DNA of 64,000 nucleotides from Parelaphostrongylus tenuis (lineage: Eukaryota; Nematoda; Chromadorea; Rhabditida; Metastrongylidae). Both the position numbers and the translations under genes were made by a program. Below, in pieces: positions 13,163 to 63,029 of the stretch. Location of the stretch: NCBI GenBank assembly GCA_019055375.1, contig JAHQIW010004625.1, forward strand, positions 248,001 through 312,000. Direction: 5' to 3'. The notes beneath the pieces are model-generated. The model worked only from the letters and a program-made list of their open reading frames with translations, searched no databases and was not told where the DNA came from. Positions within the stretch are counted from its first letter, which is position 1; every line of letters begins with the position of its first letter.

Positions 13163-13782
13163 GATTGACAATGAGTACAAAAATATAGTAATTATCTCAA
13201 GTGCATTATGGTATTCAAACCAAGTTTCTTACAGTTTCATAAGAGGATCACAAATAAATTCTATGCCTATTTGACTGTTTTTTGATCACGACTAGAAATT
13301 TCTCAGTAGGGTATTCGTATCTAATGGCTTCACTTGTGGTTGATTCGAGTTCCTCGCATGAGTTACGGTGATAAAGGATCTTCTCTTCCTCAAAGAAAAT
13401 TGACAGAGAGAATCGCTTCTTCATGGCGATGATCTACTTGCAACATAGCCCTATCAAATCGTCAATTTCATAAACTTTCAGCTATTGTGGCTGGTTAAAG
13501 GTTTTTGATATCAATCAATGCAATACGGAAACTTTAAGCATTTGTCTACATAATGCTTTTCGTAGACATGCGCTACATCATTCATTGGTTTAGTTTACAT
13601 AGATAAGTTCAAGTCTAATGTTTTAGTTTCACGTTGAAGAAGACCTTGAGAGAAACCTAAATTTGGGAGAGCGTGTTGTCACTGATGGCAACCCTGATAA
13701 GGATAACTGAAGCGAAATCTTGCTTAATATTCCAAAATGTTTTCTATATACCTAAGAGAATTGAGTGGTGAGCACAAACGCG

Positions 13783-13854
13783 GCCTCAGGCGGGAATCGA
13801 ACCCGCGTTTCGTCCTATCCGGGGACGCGTGCTCTACCACTGCGCCTTCGAGGC
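13783..13854 (-). tRNA. tRNA-like cloverleaf, anticodon-position GGA, in the left foldback arm
   Basis: The 72 nt fold as a tRNA: acceptor GCCTCGA with CTGAGGC (five Watson-Crick pairs, one wobble, one mismatch), D-arm around AGTGGTAGA, a perfect anticodon stem CGTCC/GGACG with loop CCGGATA, and a perfect T-arm GCGGG/CCCGC with loop TTCGATT. Position 33 is C instead of the near-universal U, and a class I fold does not suit serine, so it is probably a tRNA-derived promoter and not a translating tRNA. Confidence 0.5.
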
Positions 13855-14006
13855 ACGCCTGCCCGACCACTCATTCTTCGAACATCTCAATGTCAGCTAT
13901 CAGCCACCAACCTTTGACAGGTTTGGTCGGATAGGCGATTTCGCTTTATAGGATGAAACGGCAGAAGATAAATGAGATGTTGAAAAATGAGTGGTCGGGC
14001 AAACGC

Positions 14007-14078
14007 GCCTCGGCGGTGTAGTGGTAGAGCACGCGTCCCCGGATAGGATGAAACGAGGGTTTGATTCCCGCTTGAAGC
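14007..14078 (+). tRNA. tRNA-like cloverleaf in the right foldback arm
   Basis: This is the partner of the copy at 13783, reading the other way. The anticodon arm CGTCC-CCGGATA-GGATG and the B box GGTTTGATTCC are kept, but the T-stem and acceptor stem carry more mismatches. It is a pseudo-tRNA. Confidence 0.45.
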
Positions 14079-14408
14079 TGCGTTTTTGCTTACCACTCAA
14101 TTCTCATAGGTATATAGAAAACATCATAACAATGCGAAATGCATTAAAGAACTATTAACTTCAAAATGTGCCAAATTTCGAGTTATGAATATAATAGGAC
14201 CGTTTTTTCCAGGACCTGTTATTTAGAAACTTAGATATTGATCACATAATTCAGTGCTTGTTCGATGAGCAAACCCAAAACTGTTAGCAAGAATATCTTT
14301 AGTTGCGAGTGTTTTCTTAAGACCTCAGCTCAAATTTCAATATGCCAAGTATTCATTTTTGAGCCATGCATGTCATGTGGTCTGTTAGAAAATGGCTGAC
14401 TAATAGAG

Positions 14409-14449
14409 CCCGATACACGTGTTTCGACCTTGCTGTCTCGTCAGTCGGG
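14409..14449 (-). ncRNA. Hammerhead ribozyme, intact core
   Basis: On the minus strand: stem I CCCGA, core CTGACGA, stem II GAC/GTC closed by AGCAAG, core GAA, a palindromic stem III ACACGTGT, cleavage nucleotide A in a GUA triplet, then TCGGG completing stem I. All conserved core nucleotides of the family (CUGANGA, GAA, UH) are present. The predicted cut is between 14414 and 14413. The very short palindromic stem III suggests that activity may be best as a dimer, as known for Penelope-type hammerheads. Confidence 0.85.
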
Positions 14450-14809
14450 AGTGTTACCCTTTCTCGTCTTTTGCCAATCCTGTGTGGCTTCTTCGGTCCC
14501 CACACTAAGAGTTAGCGACAACAAACGTTTCACACTCTATGTGCGGCAGAAATTATCACCGATTAATTACGTGCGGCTCAAAAATAATTTTTGGGCACAT
14601 TGAAATTTGTGCTGTGGTCTCAAGAAAACACCCAAAACGAAAGGTATGATATATTAAATATACTAGCCAAGAGCAATCGAGTGTACAAACACTCTGTGTT
14701 CGGTGATAATTTCACTGGACATAGAGTGTAAAACGTTCATCGTCGCTAATTCTTAGTGTGAGGACTGTAGCACCCACACAGGATTGGCAAAAAACGAGAA
14801 AGGGTAGCT

Positions 14810-14852
14810 GCCCGACTGAGGAGACTGCGAGGTTGAGACACGTGTATCGGGC
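14810..14852 (+). ncRNA. Hammerhead ribozyme with one core change (A14 to G)
   Basis: GCCCGA and TCGGGC form a perfect six-pair stem I, the core is CTGAGGA, stem II is a weak GAC/GTT, and stem III is ACACGTGT. The second core motif reads GAGA in place of GAAA, which should abolish or greatly reduce cleavage. It is the arm partner of the ribozyme at 14409. Confidence 0.75.
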
Positions 14853-15026
14853 TTTATAAGTAGCCCTTTTTTAACAGACCATATGACATACGTGACTCAA
14901 AAATGATTATTTAGCATTTCAGCAGATATGTTTATTGATTAAATTGATTAAAATGAGTAAAAATCCCTACTAAATGAATTCTTTACCTTTACTGATTTCT
15001 AGCAGTGGTATGATGTTATAAATATG

Positions 15027-21835: not shown

Positions 21836-22290
21836 TTTTTTGTTTAACCGCTTCTGGCAGTAGTATGATGTTTCAAATATAACCATTGATATAGAGTGAT
21901 GTGCGGAACTATCGCGTCAGGCGGAACTAGAAACGTCACTCTTTGAGCGAGCACGTGCTCTATCCGTTACACTACTAACACCCATCTTGCACACCAGTCT
22001 CCCTACGCTATGGCTCATCTATCTGTCAGCCGCCAGCCATCAACGGCTTGGCCCGGGTAGTCGGTCTCGACATTGAACCCAGTCACGCTGACAAATACTG
22101 GGCGTTAAAGAACTACCCGGGCCAGGTTGTTGATGGGCGGCTGACAGATAGATGAGCCAAGCGTAGAAAGACTGGTGTGCAAAATGGACGTCAGTAGTGT
22201 AGCGGATAGAACGCGCTCCCGGAAAGAGTGAGGTGCTGGTTCTAAACCCGCCTGACGCAATAGTTTTGCACATCACTCTACATCAACCAC
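21836..22290. mobile_element. tRNA-like foldback element, family 2, full palindrome
   Basis: Both arms end in an inverted repeat related to ATGATGTTTCAAATAT and GATATAGAGTGATGTGC. A long nearly perfect inner palindrome (CTCATCTATCTGTCAGCCGC around 22017 and its complement around 22138) surrounds the centre. The right arm holds a plus-strand tRNA-like core (about 22194-22262) with A box GTGTAGCGGATAG, anticodon arm CGCTC-CCGGAAA-GAGTG and B box GGTTCTAAACC; the left arm holds the mirror copy. No ORF of its own. Confidence 0.75.
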
Positions 22291-34442: not shown

Positions 34443-34457
34443 TAATTACATATTATT
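34443..34457. repeat. Target-site duplication, left (15 bp)
   Basis: TAATTACATATTATT recurs exactly at 35169-35183 and brackets the ribozyme element. A duplication of this length is typical of target-primed reverse transcription. Confidence 0.8.
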
Positions 34458-34505
34458 CCAAAAAAAAGAATGATTTAAGCTCAAAAAAGGGGGTTGGTAA
34501 GCCCA

Positions 34506-34553
34506 GGGTCATACACCGGTGTTTCGGAGGTTCGTCCTCCTCATCAGTGACCC
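34506..34553 (-). ncRNA. Hammerhead ribozyme, family A, intact
   Basis: On the minus strand: stem I GGGTCA, core CTGATGA, stem II GGAGG/CCTCC with loop ACGAA, core GAA, palindromic stem III ACACCGGTGT, GUA cleavage triplet, then TGACCC completing stem I. Every core base is present. The predicted cut is between 34512 and 34511. Confidence 0.9.
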
Positions 34554-34598
34554 CCGCCCCACATTCAGCCCTGCATTGAAGCAAGGAGGGTGGCGTAT

Positions 34599-34640
34599 GT
34601 GGTGATGGCACAGTGTACTATGACACTGTACCATCACCAC
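34599..34640. repeat. Strong internal hairpin of the family A monomer
   Basis: GTGGTGATGG-CACAGTGT pairs with ACACTGT-ACCATCACCAC around a short loop, with one mismatch. The same hairpin occurs in the right block (about 34940-34981) and at 62737-62778, so it is a conserved part of the RNA, not a chance palindrome. Confidence 0.75.
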
Positions 34641-35023
34641 CTCTCAGTCGATAGATTTTTGCTGTTAGATCAAAACTATATCAAAAGATCGACTGTTTTT
34701 GAAACCCCCAAAAACATTCAATATAATTCCAAAAAAAGAATGATTTAAGCTCAAAAAAGGGGGTTGGTAAGGACGAACCTCCGAAACACCGGTGTATGAC
34801 CCTGGGCTTACCAACCCCCTTTTTTGAGCTTAAATCATTCTTTTTTTGGAATTATATTGAATGTTTTTGGGGGTTTCAAAAACAGTCGATCTTTTGATAT
34901 AGTTTTGATCTAACAGCAAAAATCTATCGACTGAGAGGTGGTGATGGTACAGTGTCATAGTACACTGTGCCATCACCACATACGCCACCCTCCTTGCTTC
35001 AATGCAGGGCTCAATGTGGGGCG

Positions 35024-35071
35024 GGGTCACTGATGAGGAGGACGAACCTCCGAAACACCGGTGTATGACCC
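35024..35071 (+). ncRNA. Hammerhead ribozyme, family A, intact
   Basis: Stem I GGGTCA (35024-35029), CTGATGA (35030-35036), stem II GGAGG/CCTCC (35037-35051), GAA (35052-35054), ACACCGGTGT (35055-35064), A at 35065 as the cleavage nucleotide and TGACCC (35066-35071). The order and pairing fit the hammerhead fold with the shortest possible stem III. A 5'-truncated ribozyme with the same 3' half lies at 34771-34802. Confidence 0.9.
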
Positions 35072-35249
35072 TGGGCTTACCAACCCCCTTTTTTGAGCTT
35101 AAATCATTCTTTTTTTGGAATTATATTGAATGTTTTTGGGGGTTTCAAAAACAGTCGATCTTTTGATATAATTACATATTATTTGAACTCAAACATGGCT
35201 CTTGAGTCAGTCTGTGAAAACTTATGAGAGATAAGTGTGAAGTGCTTCA

Positions 35250-35665
35250 AAATTATCTGTTTCAAGTGTTTTCTTGAGACCACGCTCAAATTTCATTAAC
35301 CTGGAAGTCATTTTTTTAAGCAATGTATGTGATCTTTTATAGGGCAACTTATAGAGCCCGCTGCATGTATTGCGGCTACAGCCTCGGCAATGGAGTAGTA
35401 CCCTTCGTCTTCCTTTTAGCCAATCCTCTCGGGAAACCCAACTCCTTGTATAGAGTTGGCGCAAGAGCACTTTTTACACGTTCCATTGAATAAAAATATC
35501 ACTGAATATCTATATCGCCAACTCTATATGAGGGCTTGGGTTTCCCCGAAAGGATTAGCCAAAGTAGAGACGAAGGGTACTGCCCGACTGACGAGGCTCT
35601 TAAGGCTGGAACCCGTCTATCGGGCTGTGCAAGTTGTCCTGTGAAAGACCACATGCATGCTTCAA
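35250..35665. mobile_element. Hammerhead-ribozyme foldback, family B, copy 2
   Basis: The left end TTCAAGTGTTTTCTTGAGACC and the outer arm GTCATTTTTTTAAGCAATG parallel copy 1; the right arm ends GACCACATGCATGCTTCAAA. The right-arm ribozyme (35582-35625) keeps stem I GCCCGA/TCGGGC and CTGACGA but has GGAA for GAAA and a damaged stem III; the left-arm one (about 35357-35400) is more degenerate. A central palindrome around ACTCCTTGTATAGAGTTGGCG and CCAACTCTATATGAGGG closes the foldback. Confidence 0.7.
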
Positions 35666-38329: not shown

Positions 38330-38600
38330 AATGGGCTTCGGGTTAAAAAAAGCGGATCCAGCTTCCAACTGACGTTGTGCACTTTGCATATGACTCAAAA
38401 TTCTTGAATAAGCACTCAACATTCTTGAATGAGCATAGTGGAATGAACATTCTCGAATGATTCCTTTGAAAGTAAGGTGTGTCCACTGCAAGGGATCGGC
38501 TGAGCCGAAAGGCACCGTGCTACTGATGAGCTTGTAAGGGCGAAACAGCAACTGTCTAGTACTGCATAAGTGCTGCACCAGACCTCATAAAAGGCTTAAA
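38330..38600 (+). mobile_element. Hammerhead-ribozyme element, family B, copy 4 (right arm)
   Basis: GGGATCGGCTGAGCCGAAAGG and the downstream ACCAGACCTCATAAAAGGC parallel the right arms of the copies at 14300 and 35250. Near 38400, TTCTTGAATAAGCACTCAAC and TTCTTGAATGAGCATAG form a short direct repeat. The left arm is barely recognisable. Confidence 0.6.
38517..38562 (+). ncRNA. Hammerhead ribozyme, family B variant, intact, GUC cleavage triplet
   Basis: Stem I GTGCTA/TAGTAC (six pairs, one G-U), core CTGATGA (38523-38529), stem II GCTT/GGGC with loop GTAA (two G-U pairs), GAA (38542-38544), stem III ACAG/CTGT with loop CAA, then C at 38556 as the cleavage nucleotide. Stem I and stem III differ in sequence from the 14409 and 14810 copies yet still pair, which is strong evidence for a selected or recently functional RNA fold. 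The predicted cut is between 38556 and 38557. Confidence 0.88.
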
Positions 38601-39179: not shown

Positions 39180-39345
39180 CTGATACGTAGGCCTGGGCCT
39201 ATTCTGTGTGGGGTGTTGGGGATTACCCACAGGAGATTGGCTAAGGCGAAAGGAACAGTGCAATTGACAAGGCTGTCAAGGCCGAATCACGCATATTGCG
39301 CTGTAAAGTGCCCATAATAGACCATATGTATGGCTCAAAAATTAT
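39180..39345 (+). repeat. Hammerhead-ribozyme element, family B, copy 5 (relic arm)
   Basis: GGAGATTGGCTAAGGCGAAAGG is followed by a damaged ribozyme: stem I GCAAT/ATTGC still pairs although it differs from GCCCGA/TCGGGC, the core has become TTGACAA, stem II is GGC/GCC and GAATC replaces GAAAC. The arm ends CATATGTATGGCTCAAAAATT as in copy 1. The 75-codon frame starting at 39330 runs out of the repeat and is not supported. Confidence 0.6.
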
Positions 39346-39719
39346 TATCAGGCTTATCGAAACTTGGATGTAGTCATAAGAGAACACTCAAAACGAGCGG
39401 TATAAAAAAAGGACTACGGATGTTTTTCAAGTCAGCTATACGATTTTTGCTCAAATCATTTAGTAGCATCACCCTAGAGGCATCAGTACGGCAGTTTGAT
39501 ATTTTTGATCTTTCACTTGCTGGTGAGAGATCAACAGTACTTTATTTCTATGCTTAAATTGACGTTCTTCTAGGATTAAAAAGTTTAATCGAGGCAGATT
39601 CATGCTATTATTTCTAATAATCGGAATCTCAATGACATTAATGAAGATTTGAAAGTACACGATATGTAAGTTCTTGCGCTGATGAATTAATATAACACTC
39701 ATCACAAGTGCACGCATAT

Positions 39720-55397: not shown

Positions 55398-55409
55398 GAT
55401 GATCGATCA

Positions 55410-55835
55410 TATCGTTCGTTTTGAGTGTTTTCTTGAGACGACGCTAAAATTTTCAACAAATCTCAAGATAATTGTTTGAGCCAACATGTCAAGTGGTCTG
55501 TGAATGAGCTCTTGTACAGCCCTATACCTTGTGCAGCCTCGTCAGTCGGCAGAACCCCTCGCCTTTAGCCAATCCTTTCGAGGTGCTCTAGTCTCCCACA
55601 TTTTGAAATTTGAGTGTTCTCAAGAGAACACTCGAAGCAAACGATATAATATATCATAAATACCAGCCAAGAACATTCGAGTGCCCAGCACTGCCAACCT
55701 AGTGATATGTTTCACTTGAGGGCAGTGTAAATCGTTTGTTGTCGCCTACTGTTAGTGGGGGTGCATCGGGCTGTATTTGAGTTCACTAATAGACTATATG
55801 ACATGTTGGCTCAAATAATAATTATGAGGGATACC
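55410..55835. mobile_element. Hammerhead-ribozyme foldback, family B, copy 3
   Basis: TTTTGAGTGTTTTCTTGAGAC at the left and CATGTTGGCTCAAATAAT at the right match the other copies, and GAGTGTTCTCAAGAGAACACTC in the middle is the inner junction of two inverted monomers. The left-arm ribozyme keeps GCCGA-CTGACGA-GGCT on the minus strand but has lost GAAAC; the right arm keeps only GCATCGGGCTG. Dead copy. Confidence 0.65.
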
Positions 55836-56222
55836 CAGTGATGTATAGTGATGTGCAAAACTTTTGCGTCAGGCAGGACTCGAATAAATATCTCACTCTA
55901 ACCAGGAGCGCGTGCTCTAACCCGTTCCACTACTAACGTCCATTTTGCACACCACTCTTTCTACGCTTAGCTTGAATGAGTTCAATGTCGATACCGTCTA
56001 CTCGGGCCTGGCCGTTGACGGTCATATAGATGTGTTGTAGCTTAGAAAGGCGCGTGCGAAATCGGCGATAGTAGTGCAGCGGCGTAAAGCAAGCGCTCGC
56101 GGATAGTAGATGTGGGTTCGAATCCCGCCTGGTGCGAAGGTTTTGCACTTCACTCTCCATCAATGGGTATATCTGAAACATCATACCACAGCTAGAAGCG
56201 TTCAGACAAGAAGAATTCAATT
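55828..56222. mobile_element. tRNA-like foldback element, family 2
   Basis: The left end CCCAGTGATGTATAGTGATGT and the right CACTCTCCATCAATGGGTATA with ATCATACC are inverted. The right arm has a plus-strand tRNA-like core with B box GGTTCGAATCC (about 56115); the left arm has the mirrored core with GGACTCGAATAAA. The 95-codon minus-strand frame is a shadow. Confidence 0.75.
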
Positions 56223-61337: not shown

Positions 61338-61640
61338 CTAGCATACCCAATGATGCAGAGTTATGTGCAAAAACGTTTGCGTCAGTCGAGATTTGAACCC
61401 AGATCTTACTCTTTCCGTTTTTCTCGAGAGATATTGGGTTTCGATAATCAATCGGAAATCATCTTATTTGGCCGCCGATTGCGGTAGTGCAACGGTTCAG
61501 CACATGCTCCCAGAAAGAGTAAGATCTGGGTTGCAATCCCGGCCGCTGCAAACGTTTTTGCACACCACTCTAGATCACTGGGTTTATTTAAACATTATAA
61601 CACCGCAATCGGCGGCCAAATAAGATGATTTCCGATTGGG
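61338..61640. mobile_element. tRNA-like foldback element, family 2, with rearranged arms
   Basis: CCCAATGATGCAGAGTTATGT and its inverse ACCACTCTAGATCACTGGGTT enclose tRNA-like cores (GATTTGAACCC on the left, GGTTGCAATCC on the right). A second inverted pair, CAATCGGAAATCATCTTATTT and AAATAAGATGATTTCCGATTG, lies around the right half, so one foldback seems nested in another. Confidence 0.7.
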
Positions 61641-62536: not shown

Positions 62537-62549
62537 AAGTAAGTATATT
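62537..62549. repeat. Target-site duplication, left (13 bp)
   Basis: AAGTAAGTATATT recurs exactly at 62948-62960 on the other side of the ribozyme element. Confidence 0.8.
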
Positions 62550-62947
62550 CAAAAGATCGACTGTTTTTGAAACCCCCAAAAAACATTCAATATAATTCCA
62601 AAAAAAGAATGATTTAAGCTCAAAAAGGGGTTGGTACGCCAGGGTCATACACCGGTGTTTCGGAGGTTCGTCCTCCTCATCAGTGACCCCCGCCCCACAT
62701 TCAGCCCTGCATTGAAGCAAGGAGGGAGGCGTATGTGGTGATGGCACAGTGTACTATGACACTGTACCATCACCACCTCTCAGTCGATAGATTTTTGCTG
62801 TTAGATCAAAACTAATTCAAAAGATCAAACTGTTTTTGAAACCCCCAAAAAACATTCAATATAATTCCAAAAAAGAATGATTTACATACACCGGTGTATG
62901 ACCCTGGCCTACCAACCCCTTTTTGAGCTTAAATCATTCTTTTTTGG
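62550..62947 (-). mobile_element. Hammerhead-ribozyme retroelement, family A, copy 2
   Basis: Read on the minus strand it ends 3' with CAGTCGATCTTTTG, the same terminus as copy 1, and begins 5' with the inverted end CCAAAAAAGAATGATTTAAG. The inverted segment (62885-62947) joins the direct part at the palindromic stem III (TACACCGGTGTA, 62887-62898). One full ribozyme is present. Perfect 13-bp direct repeats flank the element. Having the same two termini at an unrelated site shows that this is a discrete mobile unit. Confidence 0.85.
62642..62689 (-). ncRNA. Hammerhead ribozyme, family A, intact
   Basis: Sequence and pairing are the same as in the copies at 34506 and 35024: GGGTCA, CTGATGA, GGAGG-ACGAA-CCTCC, GAA, ACACCGGTGT, A, TGACCC. 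The predicted cut is between 62648 and 62647. Confidence 0.9.
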
Positions 62948-63029
62948 AAGTAAGTATATTGTTCTCCAAAATACGCTCGGTATATAATACCCGCTCGTAA
63001 TAAATGGAAGACCTGCTAGCATAGGATTC

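Follow-up and report, generated by a model that had tools for sequence, protein, structure and literature searches.

What kind of system carries two complete hammerhead ribozymes in opposite orientations within one short mobile element, and how does such an inverted pair arise? The question is raised by an element, called E1 here, at positions 34458-35168 of a 64,000-nucleotide stretch of Parelaphostrongylus tenuis DNA, which we refer to as the window. A sequence-only reading of the window had put the element forward as an undescribed system built on inverted ribozyme units. We find instead that the inverted pair is the footprint of an insertion: what had been taken for a designed pair is the place where two cDNA arms meet. 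The newness lies in the geometry of this insertion and in its match to Penelope-like elements (PLEs), not in the class of the element. In our judgement E1 is quite probably the insertion of a non-autonomous retrozyme of the metazoan type, for which the protein of a PLE would have copied a circular RNA from both ends of the target.

The 15-bp repeats said to bound the element are exact. Direct reading and a repeat search place TAATTACATATTATT at 34443-34457 and, identically, at 35169-35183, as the left and right target-site duplications of E1 (16 nt if the preceding A is counted). The repeat search also showed that E1 repeats every 269 nt and that its inverted arms are long, most of the element being a nearly perfect 220-nt inverted repeat. 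The left arm (34458-34771, 314 nt) is minus-sense and the right arm (34772-35168, 397 nt) is plus-sense. One complete 269-nt retrozyme unit lies on the plus strand at 34797-35065, and we number it from the first base past the predicted cleavage site (u1, position 34797). The outer end of the left arm falls at u53, within a unit site that we call A, and that of the right arm at u102, within a site that we call B. In the intact unit, A (u50-67) occupies 34846-34863 and B (u97-116) occupies 34893-34912, both on the plus strand; in most insertions A is the terminus of one arm and B the terminus of the other. The segment from A to B, about 46 nt between their medians, is referred to as the tail. 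At the junction of the arms, which overlap there by 2 nt, stands the 3' part of a ribozyme (34772-34796, plus strand) without CUGAUGA.

A strict structural scan for type I hammerheads, defined by the core CUGANGA/GAA/UH together with paired stems I, II and III, found one intact ribozyme on each strand of E1. The minus-strand core lies at 34512-34547, with cleavage predicted at 34512|34511, and the plus-strand core at 35030-35065, with cleavage predicted at 35065|35066 (GUA|UGACCC). Both fall inside the 48-nt segments (34506-34553, minus; 35024-35071, plus) that had been described as complete hammerheads, and that description stands. In 200 first-order Markov sequences of window length the same scan gave a mean of 0.01 hits, with one hit in 2/200. 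Read from the sequence, the ribozyme of the unit has GGGUCA/UGACCC as stem I, GGAGG/CCUCC as stem II and a short palindrome, ACACCGGUGU, as stem III; the cut is predicted after GUA and the open helix is stem I, hence type I. Folding of the 269-nt stretch spanning the unit gave z = -5.5 relative to shuffles. The Rfam models, suggested earlier as a check, did not call the ribozymes: at gathering score the whole window returned four tRNA matches only and no hammerhead, and in a permissive scan RF00008 reached 15.2 and 14.4 bits against a cut-off of 48.5. The Rfam hammerhead models score so far below their cut-offs that annotation by those cut-offs would miss the ribozymes of this window.

Since each strand of E1 carries only one complete ribozyme, two cleavages should not be able to free a whole 269-nt unit from either strand; the other unit cleavage site in E1 (34796|34797) is without its CUGAUGA half. 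For these reasons E1 was ruled out as a paired-ribozyme device. The description of E1 as a protein-less mobile element is borne out: no ORF of at least 100 aa overlaps E1. Ten of the 17 ORFs of this length in the window, and five frames of 150 aa or more close to the copies that were fetched, gave 0 Pfam families.

The window contains five strict hammerhead cores in total. Besides the two in E1, one (62648-62683, minus strand) is the intact core of a second copy, E2, which the earlier reading did not include. E2 occupies 62550-62947 between 13-nt target-site duplications, AAGTAAGTATATT, at 62537-62549 (left) and 62948-62960 (right). It consists of a long minus arm with its outer end at B followed by a short plus arm with its outer end at A, so that the order, minus then plus, is that of E1. 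The remaining cores, at 14414-14444 (minus) and 38523-38556 (plus), have helices unlike those of E1 and the same core pattern. The former belongs to a second hammerhead family at 14293-14917, an 84% inverted repeat arranged head-to-head, with the intact core in one arm and a decayed partner (CTGAGGA...GAGA) on the opposite strand in the other; weaker relatives of this family lie at 35248-35427, 39227-39403 and 55409-55600. The latter, a third hammerhead, has GUGCUA/UAGUAC as stem I and a cut predicted after GUC, and its sole other match in the window is weak (39230-39354).

We searched the assembly (481.5 Mb, 5105 contigs) with the 269-nt unit, and it proved to belong to a large family: 1375 candidates were obtained, of which 40 were scored and gave 280 matches, part of them listed. 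All 39 clusters outside the window among the matches listed were fetched. Adding E1, E2 and a further element of L050 gives 42 elements, 40 of them distinct, since L032 and L061 duplicate L031 and L049. On each of the contig pairs L031/L032 and L049/L061 the same insertion is seen with the same duplication; these are perhaps haplotigs or segmental duplicates. Among the matches listed and in the window, a target-site duplication of at least 9 nt flanks 36 of the 42 elements (34 distinct); its length is 9-19 nt, being at least 11 nt in 30/34 distinct elements and 9-10 nt in 4/34. The duplications are 77% A+T, as against 61% for the window. Six elements are without a duplication of at least 9 nt: L038 (contig start), L042 (8 nt only), L046, L055, L065 and L066. 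The L065 row was excluded because its longest repeat lay within the element, and elements whose best duplication fell below 9 nt were excluded as well.

Full units are 266-274 nt long. Over the last 48 nt, which hold the whole ribozyme but for the 3' strand of stem I, 96 of the 109 full units from the matches listed and the window agree exactly. Further copies with a conserved core, on which half of the earlier refuting condition turned, thus exist; the other half, compensatory stem changes, calls for copies less alike than these. The other 13 units represent 10 variants over these 48 nt, and in at least one variant a core base has been lost. Mean substitution difference, computed on the 109 full units present in 34 of 36 duplication-bearing rows, is 0.29% for units of the same arm, 0.78% for the two arms of one element and 0.85% for different elements (medians 0, 0 and 0.37%). 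The copies sampled from the matches listed are young; they are the best-matching and probably the youngest copies of the family. L038, whose arms hold about 14 and about 17 tandem units, is an example of the multi-unit arrays that make better candidates for source loci than E1. A scan of viral contigs with the ribozyme pattern gave no match.

The 269-nt family fits the metazoan retrozymes, a known class. Metazoan non-LTR retrozymes are small non-coding repeats of about 170-400 nt, arranged in tandem, with type I hammerheads and duplications longer than 4 bp (PMC7229834; this and the other papers cited by PMC number are drawn on from portions of their text). The family of E1 has all of these: the type I core, tandem units within 170-400 nt, the lack (in E1) of any ORF of at least 100 aa and the duplications over 4 bp. 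As this class is published, the system cannot be called undescribed. The present family differs from the published metazoan retrozymes in being made up mostly of head-to-head inverted arrays, in having two defined 3' ends, and in sharing its genome with a PLE of similar layout; in the consulted portion of its main text, PMC7229834 describes tandem repeats and contains neither 'inverted' nor 'nematode'. Our partial survey of the literature on retrozymes and PLEs, likewise from portions of the papers, gave no report of head-to-head or nematode retrozymes. The plant LTR retrozymes are also non-autonomous hammerhead retroelements with circular RNA (PMC4918200). However, they have type III hammerheads, LTRs and 4-bp duplications (PMC7229834, PMC7761336), whereas the present family has type I hammerheads and duplications of 9-19 nt, and we do not place it among them. 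Hammerhead satellites and W-elements of schistosomes resemble it as repetitive hammerhead elements of worms, with a duplication in one case (PMC8490949), but these are flatworm elements and the head-to-head A/B pattern was not seen in the portion of PMC8490949 that we used.

The footprint of insertion is best seen in the family as a whole. Among the matches listed and in the window, 32 of the 40 distinct elements are two-armed, all of them head-to-head with the plus-sense 3' ends outward. The order minus-left/plus-right holds in 28/28 distinct two-armed elements with a duplication and also in L038, L042, L046 and L066, which are without one; 42-nt opposite-strand pieces inside the arms represent an internal palindrome and were excluded from this orientation count. 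The other eight of the 40 are one-armed (L041, L045, L048, L050b, L053, L055, L057 and L065). The outer ends, counted among the matches listed and in the window and including those of six one-armed elements with a duplication, fall in A 30 times, in B 29 times and elsewhere three times, with medians, taken by hand, of u56 for A and u102 for B. In the 28 two-armed elements with a duplication these ends are paired as 25 A/B, two B/other and one A/other, the other ends in these 3/28 elements being u11, u31 and u36; there is no A/A and no B/B element. When the ends were shuffled, the mean was 12.8 A/B pairs and 0/20,000 trials reached 25. Micro-homology between end and target averages 2.6 nt for A and 2.1 nt for B, as against 0.75 and 0.77 nt for shuffled targets (0/5000).

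Could a LINE-type machinery have produced the inverted copies by twin priming? Twin priming gives inverted insertions with duplications, both of which are found here, and a frame in L052, which has no Pfam hit, looks like that of an RTE-type element; given this frame, an enzyme other than that of a PLE is possible. However, in twin priming one 3' end is defined while the second site varies, whereas both ends are defined and different in 25 of our 28 elements, and inversion is the rule (32/40 distinct elements) rather than a minority outcome. We consider twin priming improbable as the source of these insertions.

The junctions between the arms bear on hairpin self-priming, in which a single target-primed cDNA folds back and primes its own second strand to leave an inverted repeat. 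Self-priming was put forward for the inverted repeats of PLEs on the strength of palindromes at their junctions (PMC3846280), and the nearly perfect inverted repeat of E1, like the arm junction of E2, which sits at palindromic stem III, is of the kind it would leave. It predicts matched junction coordinates, but those observed are unrelated: their mean circular distance is 71, against 67 for a uniform distribution, and only 1/28 lie within 20 nt. Nor does it give a cause for a second outer end at a site that the first does not use. The junctions examined, which do not include those of L039, L062 and E2, are mostly overlaps of 0-3 nt or fillers of at most 29 nt, the exceptions being a 26-nt overlap in L037 and a 63-nt gap in L036. 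They fit two independent cDNAs united by end joining better than a fold-back, and the chance that self-priming made these elements seems to us slight. A fold-back or MITE-like DNA transposon with ribozymes present by chance would account for inverted arms, near-constant ends and duplications, but is very unlikely in view of arms that range from 31 to 2790 nt in the A/B elements and contain tandem units, junction coordinates that vary by element, ends that shift with target micro-homology, and duplications that vary from 9 to 19 nt. Inverted chimeras are a known artefact of assembly or amplification, but duplications at different flanks on many contigs, together with constant head-to-head order and A/B ends, are so unlike random palindromic chimeras that we give this explanation almost no weight.

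With two cDNA arms as the preferred reading, the arms also inform on the template. The longest arm of the 25 A/B elements is 1777 nt at A and 2790 nt at B, and 36/50 arms exceed the length of one unit. Such arms must read through the cleavage site, so that the template was circular or multimeric. The 5' arm ends lie within 5 nt of the cleavage site in 8/56 cases, as against 2.1 expected, an excess which suggests that some templates may have been linear, opened at this site. In eight minus arms (L040, L042, L053, L057, L062, L063, L065 and E2) the inner end is at u35-37, which may be a pause of the reverse transcriptase or a transcript start. Same-length pairs of units make up 0.475 of pairs within elements and 0.26 after shuffling (0/2000). 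We considered whether equal unit lengths prove that each insertion came from one circle and gave the argument up: the length of the T-run varies within arms and only 13/36 cross-arm unit pairs are equal, which leaves a single circle per insertion unproven.

Which enzyme could act in this way? PLEs have been named a strong candidate for mobilising animal retrozymes, with circles proposed as the templates (Cervera and de la Pena 2020, PMC7229834), and a 2022 guide states that animal retrozymes may depend on PLEs (PMC8969392). PLEs are described as inverted pLTRs, mostly head-to-head, with an optional tail on one of them (PMC3846280). Work with a purified PLE protein shows that AT-rich DNA is cut and extended on both strands, and that reverse transcription starts at two internal positions of the RNA, which bound the genomic tail (PMC11167929). 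The retrozyme family has this PLE-type insertion pattern, with a head-to-head inverted arrangement, the tail on one arm and a duplication, and it further resembles PLEs in its AT-rich targets and in a hammerhead upstream of the start sites of reverse transcription (PMC3846280, PMC11167929). E1 has no ORF of at least 100 aa, and hence no ORF for a reverse transcriptase with GIY-YIG, and so is not itself a PLE. Two further differences are that A/B ends occur in 25/28 elements while the tail of PLEs is described as optional, and that PLE hammerheads are minimal, without helix III or loop contacts (PMC7761336), whereas the retrozyme hammerhead has helix III.

Candidates for the helper are present in the same genome. 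The GIY-YIG domain (PF01541) forms a very large family there and gave 1723 candidates, of which 150 were scored, all 150 being over the cut-off, with frames of up to 902 aa. Among these 150 listed, a hand count found 20 opposite-strand pairs within 5 kb, and 20/20 are minus-left/plus-right. We read both edges of one putative PLE locus, C406, and found a duplication of 12 nt, a C-terminus of GIY-YIG type (E 1.1e-8) and a minimal hammerhead without helix III. The arms of C406 end 60 and 110 nt past its hammerhead cleavage site, where the retrozyme medians are 56 and 102, and its tail is 50 nt, or 47 nt if three ambiguous bases are assigned to the arm. Immediately before B the retrozyme has ACAGTCGATCTT (offset 86; 34882-34893 in E1, plus strand), and C406 has ACAGTCGGTCTT at nearly the same offset (89), identical at 11 of 12 positions; the similarity common to the two can be written ACAGTCGRTCTT, and 5/2000 shuffles equal the match. 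Judged from sequence features, namely the GIY-YIG domain, frame length, hammerhead, tail and geometry, the GIY-YIG family would be that of a PLE.

We propose the following scheme for the retrozymes. Multimeric copies would be transcribed, the type I hammerheads in the transcript would cut the RNA to 269-nt units, and the units would be circularised. An autonomous PLE would supply the protein, with reverse transcriptase and GIY-YIG endonuclease, that takes these circles as template and cleaves AT-rich DNA with a stagger. Reverse transcription on plus RNA would then be primed by both 3' overhangs, starting at A for one and, some 46 nt further downstream, at B for the other, and both cDNAs would extend inward, often for more than one round of the template. 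Finally, end joining or micro-homology would unite the two cDNAs, leaving a head-to-head inverted array between duplications of 9-19 nt. Cleavage in vivo, the circles, the PLE as the enzyme and the order of events are what we infer. Against the PLE scheme stand the 3/28 elements with another end, the 8/40 one-armed elements and the 4/34 duplications of only 9-10 nt, and the single PLE copy compared, C406, is a small sample. In the PLE reaction in vitro, moreover, the start sites are alike on both strands, the main substrate is unprocessed RNA and ribozyme cleavage is unnecessary (PMC11167929, in the portion consulted), and these results do not fit simply with the scheme.

A more specific model is that in this genome retrozymes and PLEs alike use a two-ended form of target-primed reverse transcription, in which the strands of an A:B stem in a single RNA each capture one of the complementary target overhangs. 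A and B can form 16 uninterrupted base pairs, G-U included, a length reached by 7/1000 shuffles. If true, the model would account for the lack of A/A and B/B insertions and for a duplication length near that of the stem. In the fold of the full circular unit, however, the expected number of A:B pairs was 0.0 and the stem was not predicted, and in the fold of the one PLE tail, that of C406, A was not paired with B. We have dropped the stem as a firm result, given the lack of support in the full-circle fold, and regard the model as a tentative and rather doubtful one.

Two observations concern other repeats. In the window, tRNA-Ser-like repeats occur as inverted pairs at 13782-14078, 21914-22259, 55865-56129 and 61378-61550, and 4/4 opposite-strand pairs within 300 nt are minus-left/plus-right; no clear duplications were found at these pairs. 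Perhaps tRNA-derived SINEs were inserted by the same two-ended machinery. Elsewhere in the genome (G000:C3131:160-24504) a tandem array with a period of about 568 bp holds 36 full-length SL1-RNA-like matches at 44-47 bits, against an Rfam cut-off of 75, and by sequence likeness this array would indirectly support a nematode host with divergent SL RNA.

The A/B asymmetry and the unmatched junctions favour two independent primer extensions, one for each target strand, over the self-priming suggested for PLEs (PMC3846280), and this agrees with the PLE protein that cuts and extends both strands (PMC11167929). Which enzyme mobilises animal retrozymes becomes directly testable with this young, high-copy family, whose insertions share their geometry with the PLEs of its own genome and resemble one PLE copy in end spacing and in the 12-mer.
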